Below are positions 5,673 through 54,734 of a stretch of 64,000 nucleotides of DNA, piece after piece. The notes beneath the pieces were generated by a model that ran no database searches, had not been told where the DNA came from, and saw only the letters and a list, made by a program, of their open reading frames with translations. How positions within the stretch are numbered: position 1 is the first letter of the stretch; each line of letters opens with the position of its first letter. Source of the stretch: Roseibacillus persicicus (lineage in GTDB: Bacteria > Verrucomicrobiota > Verrucomicrobiia > Verrucomicrobiales > Akkermansiaceae); the NCBI RefSeq assembly GCF_014651675.1, contig NZ_BMXI01000018.1, positions 1 to 64,000 of the forward strand, in the 5' to 3' direction. The translations under genes and the position numbers were made by a program.

Positions 5673-7688
5673 CTAACTGACAGTGCCTTGCTGCTTGGAT
5701 GCCTCCACCTCGGGACGCACCGATGACAGATCCACGATGCGCTCGCTGTCTTCGCTTTCCGCCTTGGCCGCGGCGTCGTCGTGAATCTTCTGCAGAAAGT
5801 CCTCGTAGTAGATGACCTCGAAGGTCCCGTCGAGATGCTCCACCACGGCGCTGAGCGACTCTACCCAGTCACCGGAATTCAGGTAGTGCACATCTTCCAA
5901 CTGCTCGTCTGCGGGAGTGTGGATGTGACCACAGATGATCCCCTCGCATCCCTTCCGGCGTGCCAGCATTTGCAACTGTTCCTGATACCGATCGACGAAG
6001 GAGACGGCCGACTTCACCTTGCATTTGATCGCCTTGCTCATCGAGAAATACTCCTTCCCGCGCCAAGACCGATAGTTGTTATAGACGCGATTGACCTTCA
6101 TCAGCTGGTCGTAGGCCACCGCCCCGGCGGCCGCGATCCATTTGTGATCAGTGGAGACAGTATCGAAGCCGTCACCATGAACCACGAGATATTTCTTCCC
6201 GTTCAGGGCCTCGTGAATGTGCTCCTTCACCATCTTCATCGGCCCAAATGCCATCGGCAAAAAGCGGTCGAGGATGTCATCATGATTCCCTCGGAGATAA
6301 ACCACCTCGACGTCCTCCATCTCCATCACCTTGAAGATGTAGCGCACGAACTTGGAGTGACTCTTCTTCCAAGTGCCTCCCCGCTTCAAGGCCCAGCCAT
6401 CGATGATGTCTCCATTGAGGACCAGCTTCTCGAACTTGCTATGCTTCAGAAAGTCGATGACCTCCTTCACCTTACTATCCTGTGTACCCAAATGGATATC
6501 CGAGACAAAGATGGAACGATATTCCATTGTGGAAGGCTTCCGTCGGTTGATCGTGCGCGCATTCAAACGACCTTCGCCCATTTTGCGGAGGCGTTCTTCG
6601 AAGGTCTCGACCACCTTGTCCCACCCCATCTGCAACATCCCTTGATGCGCATTCTCGCGCAGCTGACTTCGCAAATCATCGCTTGCGGCCGCAACCGCTT
6701 CCGCGATGAAGGCCTCGTCATCACCCAGAGGAGCCTTCCGCCCATTGACACCATGCTCCACATGCAAGGAGGAGGCCGCGTAATCATAACTCACAGTGGA
6801 GAGGCCGCTCGCCATCCCCTCTAACAATACATTGCCGAAGGTTTCGGTTTCGCTGGGAAAGAGCAAGAGATCGCAGGATGCATAATGCCGGGCCAAATCA
6901 TCACCTCGCTGAACGCCCGCAAAGATCACGTCCTTGTGCTGCGCGGAGAGGCTTCCGCGGACCGGACCATCACCCACAATCACACACTGGGCGTTGGGCT
7001 TCTTTTCCTGAATCTTGCGAAAGGCCGCAATTCCAAGCTCGAGGTTCTTCTCCGGAGCGAGACGCCCCACCATCAAGACCACCGGATCTTCCTCAGCCAC
7101 TCCCCACTCGCGCCGCAATTTCTCATCGCGACGCCGGGGATGGAACTGCAAGGTATCGACCCCGCGTCCCAGCAGATGGACATCACGGAACCCTTCCTTC
7201 TCCAGCCGTTCCACGACCTCACGCGAAGGGGCAAAGGTGCTGTCCGCCCGATTGTGCACCTTCTTGAGATAGCTCAGCGCGGCAGGCTTCAAGGTTCGCA
7301 AGTTGTAACGCTCCAAATACTGGTCGAAATTCGTATGGAACCCCGCCGCGACGGGAATCCGCAACATCGCGGCAGCCTTGATTGCCGAAAGCCCCAGAAG
7401 ACTCTCGGTGGCGACATAGACCGCATCCGGACTCTTTTTGCGCCAGCGCCGGAGCAGCTTCAACCGACCGGGCAATCCCACCCGGACCTCTTTGTAGCCG
7501 GGCAGCGGGATGGAAGGGAGAGAAGTCTCGCCGAAAGCCTCGCCCGATTGCTCAGCCGACCGCTCCGCAGTATGCCACACGTGGACGAGATGCCCCTGTG
7601 CCCGCAAGCCTTCAACCAGTCGCCCCAGGGTCATAGCCACGCCATTGACATCGGGCGGGAAAGTATCGGTCACGAATTCAATTCTCAT
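5673..7688 (-). CDS. GT4 glycosyltransferase fused to an LpxH-like phosphoesterase
   Basis: One continuous frame encodes two enzymes. Residues 1 to about 380 are a GT4 glycosyltransferase of the MgtA/SqdX glycolipid type: the start MRIEFVTDTFPPDVNGVAMT is typical, and the donor-site segments LMVGRLAPEKNLELG and FPSETETFGNVLLEGMASG are clear. Residues from about 388 are a calcineurin-like phosphoesterase resembling UDP-2,3-diacylglucosamine diphosphatase: VSDIHLG, NGDIIDGW, LRGNHDD, VHGDGFD and CGHIHTP. Start chosen at ATG 7686-7688; an in-frame upstream start (to 7790) would add 34 residues unlike the family. A role in membrane glycolipid synthesis is inferred. The two domains are separate adjacent genes in many bacteria, as far as I recall. 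Confidence 0.85.
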   Translation of the reverse strand: MRIEFVTDTFPPDVNGVAMTLGRLVEGLRAQGHLVHVWHTAERSAEQSGEAFGETSLPSIPLPGYKEVRVGLPGRLKLLRRWRKKSPDAVYVATESLLGLSAIKAAAMLRIPVAAGFHTNFDQYLERYNLRTLKPAALSYLKKVHNRADSTFAPSREVVERLEKEGFRDVHLLGRGVDTLQFHPRRRDEKLRREWGVAEEDPVVLMVGRLAPEKNLELGIAAFRKIQEKKPNAQCVIVGDGPVRGSLSAQHKDVIFAGVQRGDDLARHYASCDLLLFPSETETFGNVLLEGMASGLSTVSYDYAASSLHVEHGVNGRKAPLGDDEAFIAEAVAAASDDLRSQLRENAHQGMLQMGWDKVVETFEERLRKMGEGRLNARTINRRKPSTMEYRSIFVSDIHLGTQDSKVKEVIDFLKHSKFEKLVLNGDIIDGWALKRGGTWKKSHSKFVRYIFKVMEMEDVEVVYLRGNHDDILDRFLPMAFGPMKMVKEHIHEALNGKKYLVVHGDGFDTVSTDHKWIAAAGAVAYDQLMKVNRVYNNYRSWRGKEYFSMSKAIKCKVKSAVSFVDRYQEQLQMLARRKGCEGIICGHIHTPADEQLEDVHYLNSGDWVESLSAVVEHLDGTFEVIYYEDFLQKIHDDAAAKAESEDSERIVDLSSVRPEVEASKQQGTVS

Positions 7689-51627: not shown

Positions 51628-51702
51628 GGTCGGTTAGCTCAGTGGTAGAGCGCCTGCTTCACACGCAGGATGTCACAAGTTCAAATCTTGTACCGACCAC
51701 CA
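51628..51702 (+). tRNA. tRNA-Val (anticodon CAC)
   Basis: 75 nt: acceptor GGTCGGT/ACCGACC, D-arm GCTCAGTGGTAGAGC, anticodon stem CCTGC/GCAGG around TTCACAC (anticodon CAC), T-arm ACAAGTTCAAATCTTGT, and an encoded ACCA end. CAC reads valine codon GUG. It lies between lysC and the repeat block. Bases 51703-51819 hold nothing recognisable. Confidence 0.97.
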
Positions 51703-51819
51703 TTTCTTTCTCTACTTCTCGGAGAAACGTCATTCGAAACCTCCCTCGATGTTCTCCCTTCATCTCTACGAAATGTAGAACTACGCCAATCCGTCAGCAC
51801 CAATTGGAAAAGAGCACCT

Positions 51820-51916
51820 CATTCCGTCCCCCCACGGGAATGAGACCACACCATTCTCGCCAACCCCTGCGGGAACGAGGCCACATCATTCCGTCAGCCC
51901 CAACGGGGCGAAAGAA
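51820..51916. repeat. Degenerate tandem short repeats (left array)
   Basis: About three units of 31-33 bases following the pattern CATTCCGTCAGCCCC-NN-CGGG, then a purine/CCACA part. Each contains a CCCC/CGGG mini-palindrome. The last unit grades into the outer end of the first terminal inverted repeat. Confidence 0.6.
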
Positions 51917-52194
51917 GATAGCCCGGGGTGCAACCCCGGGATCTAAATGATTACGAAATGTTAGGACGAGGCGGTGATTCGGAAGTTCTTTCACGGTCCC
52001 GAAGTCCGTTCCGAAATCATCGCCCGTGCGCCAGCCGAGCGATGGCCCAACACCCTCACGCTCGCGCGAAATCCATCGCCTTCCGAATCGCTTCGGGAGG
52101 CGAATGAACGAACTCACCCCACACTCGCTTTGACCTTTCCTCGCTTGAATACCCGGGGCTTCACCCCGGGCTATCTTCTCTCACCCCGTTGGGG
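51898..52194. repeat. MITE-like element, copy 1 (43-bp terminal inverted repeats)
   Basis: 297 bases bounded by inverted repeats at 51898-51940 and 52152-52194 that match at 39 of 43 positions. Each repeat has an outer CCCC-AAC-GGGG palindrome and an inner CCCGGGG...CCCCGGG palindrome. Between them is a 173-base core (51964-52136). The core shows no convincing open frame or transposase, so the element is non-coding and, if mobile, non-autonomous. Confidence 0.75.
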
Positions 52195-52373
52195 TTTTCA
52201 GAAATCTGACTTCTCGCAAAACACAACCTGACGACTAGAGTCTCACTCTTTTGAGGACTCTTCGCCGACCTCCCCAGCCCCGAGCTTTCCTCACAACTGC
52301 GGAGCCACCCGAACTAACGACCACCCACACTCATCACCATTTCCCTCCTTTTCCTCGAAAATCAAAACCACGC

Positions 52374-52499
52374 CATCTTGCCAACCCCAACCGAAACGAG
52401 CCCCCCATTCCGTCAGCCCCGGCGGGAAAAACCACTCTTTTCCGCCAGCCCCTGCGGAAACGTGACAACATCATTCCGTCAGCCCCAACGGGGCGAAAG
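52374..52499. repeat. Degenerate tandem short repeats (right array)
   Basis: About four units of the same 31-33-base pattern as the left array, immediately before the second element. They appear to be decayed copies of the outer end of the terminal inverted repeat. They are not a CRISPR array: units are adjacent and no unique spacers separate them. Confidence 0.6.
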
Positions 52500-53011
52500 A
52501 GGATAGCCCGGGGTGCAACCCCGGGATCTAAATGATTGCGAAATGTTAGGACGAGGCGGTGATTCGGAAGTTCTTTCACGGTCCCGAAGTCCGTTCCAAA
52601 ATCATCGCCCGTGCGCCAGCCGAGCGATCGTCCAATGCCCTCACGCTCACGCGAAATCCATAGCCTTCCGAATCGCTTCGGGAGAGCTCGTGAACGAACT
52701 CACCCCACACTCGCCTTGACCTCTCCTCGCTTGAATACCCGGGGCTTCACCCCGGGATCATATCGATAAAGAATTGGTGGACGAGGCGGTGATTCGGAAG
52801 TTCTTCCACGGTCCCGAAGTCCGTTCCAAAATCATCGCCCGTGCGCCAGCCGAGCGATGGTCCAACACCCTCACGCTCGCGCGAAATCCATAGCCTTCCG
52901 AATCGCTTCGAGAGGGCGCTTGAACGAACTCACCCCACACTCGCTTTGACCTTTCTAACAACCCTCTACCCGGGGTTGCACCCCGGGCTATCCTCTTTCA
53001 CCCCGTTGGAG
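52483..53011. repeat. MITE-like element, copies 2 and 3 in tandem
   Basis: 529 bases. The left terminal repeat is at 52483-52525 and the right at 52969-53011, while the inner junction holds only the 19-base palindromic part (52738-52756). Two more cores lie at 52549-52722 and 52779-52952, near-identical to that of copy 1 (173-174 bases). The right end stops four bases before the mqo stop codon. The gap between the elements (52195-52482) holds nothing else I recognise. Confidence 0.75.
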
Positions 53012-53014
53012 TTT

Positions 53015-54526
53015 TCAGAAACTCTGGTAATCCAATCCCAAGCGCTGGATGGCGGATTGGGCGAGTTCGCGGTAGCGGTCGGCTTTGGAAGGGTCCTTAA
53101 GGTCTTCGTTGAAGTTGGGAATCATCTCCTCGATCTTGCGCCTCCCTTCCTCACTTTCGAGCATCTCGGGAAGACATTTCTTAATCACCTCCAGCACAAT
53201 ATGAACGGAAACCGACGCACCAGGCGATGCACCTAAAAGAGCGGAAATGCTTCGATCATCGGAAGTGATGACTTCGGTGCCGTAGTGCACGATCCCAGCC
53301 TCACCGTCTTCCTTTTTGATGGCCTGAACCCGAATCCCCGCATCAATGAGTTTCCAATCCTCCGCTTTAGCTCCGGGATAGAAGACGTGGAGCACGTCCA
53401 ATCGATCCTGCATTGATTGAGTCCCTTGCTGAACAAGGTATTTCACCAAAGGCAGGTTGCTCACCCCGACCTTGAGCAAGGTAGCCAAGTTGTGCGGCTT
53501 GACCGTCGAGGGCAGGTCGAGAAACGAACCTTTGCCATGCAAAAACTTCGTCGTCCACGAGGCGAAGGGGCCGAACAGCAAGGACTTCTCGCCATCTAAA
53601 ATACGGGTATCCAGATGCGGCACTGCCATCGTCGGCGCGGCCTCCAAGGCTTGCCCGTAGACCTTGGCCTGATGCTTGGCGATGACCTCGGGGTTCTTGC
53701 AAATGAGCCATTGCCCACCGATGGGAAAACCACCCAAACCCTGCGCCTGGGGAATTCCGGCCTTTTGCAAAAGCTGAAGACTTCCCCCACCGGCGCCCAC
53801 GAAGACGAATTTAGCGGAAGTGACCGTGAGCTCTTCGGTAGCGAGATTTTCCACCAGCACATCCCAGCCCCTCTCCGTTTTCTCCAGACCCACTACTTTG
53901 TGACCTGTGAGGGCACTGCAGTTCTCCTGCTCGCTCAGCCATTCAACGAGGCTCAAGGCAATCGCGCCAAAGTTCACATCAGTCCCCTCCTCCATGCGGG
54001 TCGCGGCGATGGGAACGTCGGGATCACGCTCATCTAACAGCAACGGAGCCCACGAACCGATTTCGCCCCGATCGGTGCTGTAAGTCATGCTCTCGAAGAA
54101 GTGATGATTCGCCATCCCCTTGTGCCGTTGGCGTAAAAACTCCACCTGCTGGTCGCCGTGGACGAAAGACATGTGAGCCACCGGATTGATGCAATCACGC
54201 GGATTGGCGATCATGCCCTTTTCCACCGCATAAGCCCAGAACTGGCGGGAAAACTCAAACTGCTCGAAAATCTTGATCGCGTTCGAGACATCAACCGAAC
54301 CGTCCTTTGCCTGGTCCGGGGTATAGCTCAACTCACAGATCCCCGCGTGCCCGGTCCCCGCATTGTTCCAACCATTGGACGCCTCCTTGGCGAACTCGTC
54401 AGTGACCTCGAGGAGTTGAATGGAGAGTTTGGGGTCCAGGGACTTGAGCAAAGCGCCAAGGTTGGCCGACATAATGCCGGAACCGATGAGGACAACATCG
54501 GTTTGAGACAGCTGTTTGGATGACAT
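53015..54526 (-). CDS. mqo: Malate:quinone oxidoreductase
   Basis: Membrane-associated FAD enzyme that oxidises malate to oxaloacetate and reduces quinone, a citric-acid-cycle step that feeds the respiratory chain. The 503-residue protein begins MSSKQLSQTDVVLIGSGIMSANLG (FAD-binding loop) and has EASNGWNNAGTGHAGICELS, typical of Mqo. ATG 54526 is chosen; an upstream in-frame frame adds 35 atypical residues. Its 3' end is next to the right end of the tandem repeat element. Bases 54527-54734 hold no gene. Confidence 0.95.
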   Translation of the reverse strand: MSSKQLSQTDVVLIGSGIMSANLGALLKSLDPKLSIQLLEVTDEFAKEASNGWNNAGTGHAGICELSYTPDQAKDGSVDVSNAIKIFEQFEFSRQFWAYAVEKGMIANPRDCINPVAHMSFVHGDQQVEFLRQRHKGMANHHFFESMTYSTDRGEIGSWAPLLLDERDPDVPIAATRMEEGTDVNFGAIALSLVEWLSEQENCSALTGHKVVGLEKTERGWDVLVENLATEELTVTSAKFVFVGAGGGSLQLLQKAGIPQAQGLGGFPIGGQWLICKNPEVIAKHQAKVYGQALEAAPTMAVPHLDTRILDGEKSLLFGPFASWTTKFLHGKGSFLDLPSTVKPHNLATLLKVGVSNLPLVKYLVQQGTQSMQDRLDVLHVFYPGAKAEDWKLIDAGIRVQAIKKEDGEAGIVHYGTEVITSDDRSISALLGASPGASVSVHIVLEVIKKCLPEMLESEEGRRKIEEMIPNFNEDLKDPSKADRYRELAQSAIQRLGLDYQSF

Positions 54527-54734
54527 GAACAAATGGTTGATTAGGCAGGTCCAGCATGCTTGCGAGACCCGTAGGGTCCGCGTCCATATACCAAGGGCAA
54601 AGCGCTCGCAAGGCCTCCACCACAATCCCACGAAATACTTCTTTCGCTTCTTCCTCCGCGAGCAGTCCTTCGCTCGCCCCCTCTCAATTTACCTTGCCCC
54701 CCGACAGCCTTTTCCCAAGCATGAACTCAAGCTC

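Follow-up and report, generated by a model that had tools for sequence, protein, structure and literature searches.

The window, a stretch of 64,000 nucleotides from contig NZ_BMXI01000018.1 of Roseibacillus persicicus, contains a non-coding element of about 300 bp that is present in three copies (A, B, and C) within positions 51889-53020. The copies lie between an aspartokinase-like gene with an adjoining tRNA-Val(CAC) on one side and the 3' end of the malate:quinone oxidoreductase gene (mqo) on the other. What are these elements, and how did three of them come to be placed at the edge of mqo? The earlier note read them as MITE-like, mobilisable elements or else as a large structured RNA.

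Three elements with palindromic ends beside mqo

The features of the region are as follows.

51628 to 51702, plus strand: tRNA-Val(CAC), the upstream neighbour
51786 to 51890, plus strand: degenerate hairpin-1-like units preceding A
51889 to 52203, plus strand: element copy A, complete (end, core, inverted end)
51897 to 51909, no strand: left hairpin 1 of copy A, GCCCC-aac-GGGGC, with CGTCA just before it
51922 to 51940, no strand: left hairpin 2 of copy A, CCCGGGG-tgcaa-CCCCGGG, with a GATAG foot directly 5' of it
51941 to 52151, plus strand: non-coding core of A, with its own inverted blocks GACGAG..GTGATTCGGAAGTTC..CCCGAAG / CTTCGGG..GAAC..CTCGC
52376 to 52475, plus strand: degenerate hairpin-1-like units preceding B, a diverged duplicate of the flank of A
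52474 to 52756, plus strand: element copy B, with a full left end; its right end is only the hairpin 2 in common with C
52738 to 52756, no strand: the single hairpin 2 common to B and C
52738 to 53020, plus strand: element copy C, whose left end is only the hairpin in common with B; full right end
53015 to 54631, minus strand: mqo, malate:quinone oxidoreductase, converging on the elements

The three copies and the palindromic inverted repeats at their ends, which the earlier note had described, are readily recognized. The ends are inverted repeats of 52 nt with a complementarity of 83-88% in the four listed pairs, and the inverted ends of A reach a score of 66, far above the maximum of 28 in 1000 shuffles. 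Each full end consists of the palindromic hairpin 1 GCCCCaacGGGGC and the palindromic hairpin 2 CCCGGGGtgcaaCCCCGGG, with a short linker and then the foot GATAG between them. Over 242 nt, A and B have an identity of 94% (BLAST identities are 95% for A and B, and 87% for A and C), and copy A can be folded into one long branched hairpin with either DNA or RNA parameters. As the earlier note had it, the copies hold no transposase frame: a six-frame profile search of 13 elements detected neither a frame nor a remnant of one (best E-value 0.11). Its description of the second and third copies as a tandem is correct insofar as B and C are adjacent; however, they are not two complete elements but are fused, with one hairpin 2 serving both and hairpin 1 absent from both at the junction. 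The last copy does meet the stop codon of mqo, which the right end of C abuts.

The repeated unit exceeds the element itself. About 150 bp of diverged left flank are common to A and B, and TTTTCAGAAA(C)TCTG is shared at the right end by A and C; in the case of C, it takes in the stop codon of mqo. The copies are most simply explained by the local duplication of a segment that extended to the edge of mqo, and not by three separate insertions. Local duplication, or recombination between similar hairpins, would also explain the fusion of B and C through one hairpin. The best reading of the window elements is that they are REPIN/MITE-like and locally duplicated.

Two mechanical open reading frames in the window (51642-51950 and 52251-52535) cross element ends, and their look-alike peptides, which end in ARGATPGSK, could be mistaken for proteins by gene callers. 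The best mqo match in each of three congeners is only 51-52% identical to the mqo in the window. R. persicicus has a second mqo-like gene (contig C1 of its assembly, 292140-293612) that is 52% identical to the window mqo; the match contains one TAA.

A classical MITE, moved by a DDE transposase that cuts and pastes via the terminal inverted repeats and creates a target duplication, would likewise be expected to have long inverted repeats at its ends, no coding sequence in its core, and more than one copy. However, the comparison of target duplications that the earlier note had called for came out negative at the nine complete elements that were aligned from the genome: the longest match between the two flanks averages 3.6 nt, as compared to 3.3 nt in shuffles (P 0.24). 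The ends are also unequal, with CGTCAG at exactly one end in 9/9 complete elements (14 of 26 ends overall), and they resemble the flanks of HUH/Y1 transposase genes. A DDE-type MITE is therefore a most improbable explanation.

The element family and the Acido-Lenti-1 motif

The ends of the window elements match the Rfam family RF01687 (Acido-Lenti-1).

51896 to 51940, minus strand: left end of A, RF01687 (Acido-Lenti-1), 41.4 bits (gathering score 37)
52152 to 52196, plus strand: right end of A, RF01687-like, 31.7 bits, under the gathering score
52481 to 52525, minus strand: left end of B, RF01687, 39.6 bits
52969 to 53013, plus strand: right end of C, RF01687-like, 30.8 bits, under the gathering score; abuts the mqo stop codon

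Of the four ends in the window, the two left ends pass the gathering score of 37 bits, and neither right end does. In the complete element A the motif is found on opposite strands at the two ends and points outward (minus at 51896, plus at 52152).

The earlier note had proposed a search for further copies, and had named their absence, together with poor conservation of the ends, as evidence against its reading. Neither is observed. In the R. persicicus assembly (G000; 5.28 Mb in 92 contigs, 97.5% complete), a genome-wide BLAST search with the element returned 47 match rows, including both-strand cross-matches of the palindromic ends. At least 26 RF01687 matches are present, a lower bound because 150 of 768 candidates were scored; 13 of the 26 are above the gathering cut-off, and most are clustered on contigs C1, C5, C10, C13, C14, C17, and C18. 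Among the nine complete elements, the cores are 91-93% identical inside a cluster (3 pairs), whereas between clusters they are on average 55% identical (33 pairs) and conserved in blocks. The ends are on average 81% identical between clusters, and they are thus the better-conserved part of the element. Nevertheless, the conservation of the cores in blocks goes beyond what a passive spacer would require, which counts against reading the elements as mere transposition units.

The complete elements are bounded by inverted REP-like hairpin ends, each made of hairpin 1, a foot ending in AG, and hairpin 2. The foot of hairpin 2 is mostly GATAG, CAAAG, or AAAAG, with GGTAG found once, on C17. The GTAG (GT[AG]G) foot that characterizes REPIN/RAYT systems is thus not typical of the family; the inverted hairpin pair as a unit is found in all nine complete elements. 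The C10 element (C10:62500-63000; L071 5501-6001) has short tandem repeats on both sides, with units of 7-8 nt that contain TGATTGG, and the C13 elements adjoin a short tandem array of GCGAACCG units (C13:87640-87740; L070 around 7140-7240) that runs into a stretch of N.

The distribution of identity among the cores is one of the observations that speak for an alternative explanation, namely that these palindromic repeats spread mainly through recombination, gene conversion, and replication slippage, similar to BIME/REP-like repeats, with the association with a transposase being a relic and the family being inert in R. persicicus. The cores are similar within clusters and divergent between them, the flanks were duplicated along with the element on C18, and a cognate gene was not found in the R. 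persicicus genome. However, some movement is required to bring copies with conserved ends onto separate contigs, and relatives have transposase-bearing units with similar ends. We regard spread by recombination as possible, though on the whole unlikely, as the main explanation.

A further alternative takes the Rfam annotation at face value. If Acido-Lenti-1 were a true sRNA, then the elements would be genes or cis-elements for structured RNA, and the hairpin of about 300 nt would be transcribed and involved in 3' end formation or in the regulation of mqo. RF01687 is curated in Rfam as 'Gene; sRNA', PMC2864571 grades it as 'probably' RNA, and a regulatory role in Tannerella is suggested in PMC13298647. 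The element is located at the 3' end of mqo, and as a whole it folds strongly. In the consensus fold of the nine complete elements (base-pair changes were taken from the RNAalifold pair table), 7 of 59 pairs are changed on both sides, with the pairing kept, in one sequence or more. Two of these seven pairs join the two feet, which read CAAAG and CTTTG in the C10 element.

However, the hairpins are palindromic, so that the pairing is equally open to DNA. The distribution of the element also speaks against a structured RNA: within the genus, matches are found in 2/4 genomes (52 rows in R. persicicus, a single weak match in G011, and none in G024 and G034), and among 97 genomes of the family the exact end pattern of the window is found in R. 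persicicus itself and in no other. The motif occurs on opposite strands at the two ends of complete elements and brackets transposase genes on both sides, which favours a role as DNA, and it is strongly associated with one transposase subclass. We consider the structured RNA explanation improbable; Acido-Lenti-1 probably is the end of a DNA element and not an sRNA gene.

Subclass 1.2 transposase genes between related ends

The earlier note had suggested a search for a transposase with matching repeats. None was found in R. persicicus, but ends related to those of the window flank transposase genes in relatives. We searched 15 RF01687-positive genomes for Y1 transposases, and among the matches listed, eight RF01687 matches are located 71-184 bp from the edge of a match to a small Y1 domain. 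In 29 Y1 loci from relatives, all 22 proteins of 138-159 aa have the motif Y...Q..HH, which is also carried by L143 and, behind an early stop, by L140; the remaining loci encode Y...NP proteins or proteins without either motif. All 20 aligned proteins match NF033573, the NCBIfam model for IS200/IS605 transposases (E<=0.001). Seven of the 20 also match the REP-associated transposase model NF047646, and the profile of the aligned proteins finds the ISHp608 TnpA and its relatives among solved structures. In a genome from the same class (G205) we observed 49 Y1 transposase matches, several of which, among those listed, have open frames of 340-440 aa.

Scanning 41 distinct subclass 1.2 loci for RF01687 within 600 bp of the gene (E<=0.3-0.5, with some matches weak), we found the motif on both sides, minus to the left and plus to the right, in 12 loci (L118, L120, L121, L122, L125, L129, L139, L143, L181, L185, L190, and L196), on one side or in another order in nine, and on neither side in 20. 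Four more two-sided loci, L149-L152, are outside the 41, as they were fetched because an RF01687 match was known beside the gene.

An inverted repeat in the flanks exceeds the maximum of 50 shuffles in 25 of the 30 best-per-genome subclass 1.2 loci, 23 of them with a score of at least 40. The five loci without it are L173, L179, and L192, as well as L168 and L176, both of which have a shortened upstream flank. The control consisted of 300 random sites from the window and other loci, one of which was dropped for N runs; 6/299 exceed their shuffles and none has a score of 40 or more. In an earlier and partly overlapping set, 19 of 22 loci exceed the maximum of 20 shuffles; L124, L127, and L128 of that set do not, nor does the shortened locus L143. 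Many of these flanking repeats share one design, comprising hairpin 1, a linker, nnAGCC, hairpin 2, and often a third hairpin. AG is found directly 5' of a hairpin in 34 of 165 hairpins near subclass 1.2 genes as compared to 22 of 452 control hairpins (p 3e-8); the sample is made up of hairpins within 200 bp of 32 genes, mostly picked for their inverted flanks, and the controls come from other parts of the window. Such ends, some of them scoring as Acido-Lenti-1, thus flank subclass 1.2 genes in many genomes of the phylum.

The association is also visible in gene content. Among 337 genomes of the phylum, 97 are positive for RF01687 (E<=0.001, up to 17 candidates scored per genome), and 75 have a subclass 1.2 gene, with 1 to 6 matches per genome (aligned-protein query, E<=1e-20, up to 11 candidates scored per genome). 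Both are found in 62 genomes, RF01687 only in 35, the transposase only in 13, and neither in 227, which corresponds to an odds ratio of 31 (p 1.5e-29, uncorrected for phylogeny and genome size). The protein query was built solely from RF01687-positive genomes; leaving out the 15 genomes that were the source of the query, the counts are 47, 35, 13, and 227, and the odds ratio is 23 (p 2e-22, likewise uncorrected for phylogeny and genome size). At E<=1e-20, no subclass 1.2 gene was detected in 35 of the 97 RF01687-positive genomes. Three named Verrucomicrobia contigs that were picked up solely by the end pattern of the window all belong to genomes with subclass 1.2 genes (3/3). This is a weak indication given the small number of genomes, one of which is a bin of 12.6 Mb.

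In three relatives, transposase-bearing and gene-less units coexist, sharing ends that are 76-91% identical over 82-96 nt. In G006, the ends of the transposase unit L149 are 81-91% identical over 87-94 nt to those of the gene-less units L147 and L148 and to one side of L162. In G047, L118 and the ends of the gene-less L157-L159 are 76-87% identical, and in G039, L129 is 78-89% identical to the gene-less L161 and to one side of L160. It is the gene-less units to which the window elements correspond. In its exact form, the GATAGCCCGGGGCAACGCCCCGGG of the C17 elements in R. persicicus is also found beside transposases in L181 and L210. Outside the phylum, a subclass 1.2 gene on a plasmid of Persicobacter (Bacteroidota) has inverted flanks with one RF01687-like match of 35.7 bits, just under the cut-off, and a plasmid gene of Bernardetia has inverted repeats without an RF01687-like match.

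In R. persicicus itself, we found no transposase gene bounded by ends of the window type in the assembly of 92 contigs and 97.5% completeness. The sole subclass 1.2 gene that was found (C2:122925-123368) encodes a protein with Y...Q..HH; its ends have the same design as the window ends but another sequence, including a GGTAG foot, and no copies of them were detected elsewhere in the genome. The cluster on C1 lies about 0.2 kb downstream of a gene for a class 2 Y1 protein of 385 aa (Y...NP). No element end was found upstream of this gene, which might be relevant here instead of subclass 1.2. Candidates for the cognate enzyme are thus one that was lost or is unassembled, the C2 transposase acting in trans, or the class 2 enzyme. 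With no gene found between window-type ends, and with one weak match among three congeners, the family may be orphaned or inert in R. persicicus. Another class 2 Y1 gene (C20:80363-80596; L034) has different, GGAGCGCGGGTCTTTAGCCCGC-like inverted flanks of its own, with a score of 78 as compared to a shuffle maximum of 28; this is perhaps a second TIR-associated system in R. persicicus.

On the whole, we think it quite probable that A, B, and C are non-autonomous members of a single-strand transposition system of the IS200-like type, with an HUH/Y1 TnpA of subclass 1.2. The MITE-like, mobilisable reading of the earlier note thus stands in kind, as there are more copies with conserved ends and related ends flank transposases, but not in mechanism, which would be of the HUH/Y1 and not of the DDE type. 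By analogy with IS200/IS605 and REP systems, we propose that the folded single-stranded ends are recognized and then nicked by the Y1 tyrosine. The element would pass through single-stranded DNA, for example on the lagging strand; the transposase would recognize the folded hairpins at the ends, perhaps via the AG foot of hairpin 2; and the catalytic tyrosine would nick, with the segment being excised or copied without a target duplication. The lack of target duplications fits such a mechanism, and so do the unequal ends, as the one with CGTCAG may retain a cleavage or target motif. Movement in R. persicicus is likely to have been rare and old, with the copies within a cluster having arisen largely through local duplication or through recombination between hairpins.

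Known systems and the meaning of the motif

As a REPIN- or TIRtron-like non-autonomous unit, the element is of a kind already known. It is similar to IS200/IS605 elements and their non-autonomous derivatives in the transposase profile, the hairpin ends, the inequality of the two ends, and in that no target duplication was found. The ends of IS200/IS605 elements are single subterminal hairpins, whereas the ends described here are near-symmetric inverted repeats of several hairpins. The REPIN/RAYT systems (REPtrons), or REP doublets, of Pseudomonas and Escherichia coli likewise comprise non-autonomous inverted hairpin pairs with a short 5' foot (GTAG there, nnAG here), are linked to a Y1 HUH transposase, and frequently cluster between genes. 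However, the foot here is mostly GATAG or CAAAG and not GTAG, each end has at least two different hairpins in a unit of about 300 bp, and the REPIN/RAYT transposase belongs to class 2 (Y...NP), whereas the genes flanked in relatives encode subclass 1.2 proteins (Y...Q..HH).

The TIRYTs or 'TIRtrons' described in PMC3733652 are also similar in that Y1 genes have long and sometimes double-palindromic terminal inverted repeats; according to the same paper, some of these repeats also occur as dispersed copies, and TIRYTs are known in Acidobacteria too. In PMC6006769, 20 of 26 TIRYTs belong to subclass 2.1, with an HTH domain and in most cases the motif GGGG[AT][CG]A[CG]. The enzymes described here differ in that they have about 150 aa and belong to subclass 1.2. 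The CGTC-tagged REPs of PMC3733652 have the tag at one end of a palindrome with a stem of 8-9 bp; here, CGTCAG is found at 14/26 ends and the stem of hairpin 1 has 5 bp (GCCCC/GGGGC).

For TnpA_Y1 subclass 1.2, PMC6006769 gives Y---Q--HH as the signature, which the genes analyzed here share; they are likewise present in few copies per genome. The same paper portrays the subclass as one that generally lacks typical terminal structures and the properties of insertion sequences, and that is found mostly in Cyanobacteria and Bacteroidetes. In contrast, the genes described here are often bounded by inverted hairpin ends and are present in 75/337 genomes of the phylum to which the window belongs. 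The Rfam family RF01687 includes two of the four window ends above its gathering score, but what Rfam lists as an sRNA gene behaves here like the terminus of a mobile element. The function of Acido-Lenti-1 is described in PMC13298647 (2026) as little known, with a possible role as a regulator of protease genes. In searches of open-licence papers, we found no published link between Acido-Lenti-1 and a transposase. With no prior report found in that literature, what appears to be new is Acido-Lenti-1 as the end of such elements and as a likely partner of subclass 1.2 transposases.

This would offer an explanation for two orphans, an Rfam sRNA without a known function and a transposase subclass described as generally lacking recognizable ends. 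We believe that a broader statement is rather likely to hold: instead of being an RNA gene, Acido-Lenti-1 constitutes the multi-hairpin DNA ends of widespread single-strand transposons or REPtrons that are moved by TnpA_Y1 of subclass 1.2. This orphan subclass would thereby have its substrate, and long REPIN-like units would arise in species-specific populations, those next to mqo among them. If this is true, then RF01687 annotations are footprints of mobile elements, and RF01687 together with subclass 1.2 would constitute a compact system for testing how HUH enzymes recognize multi-hairpin single-stranded ends.
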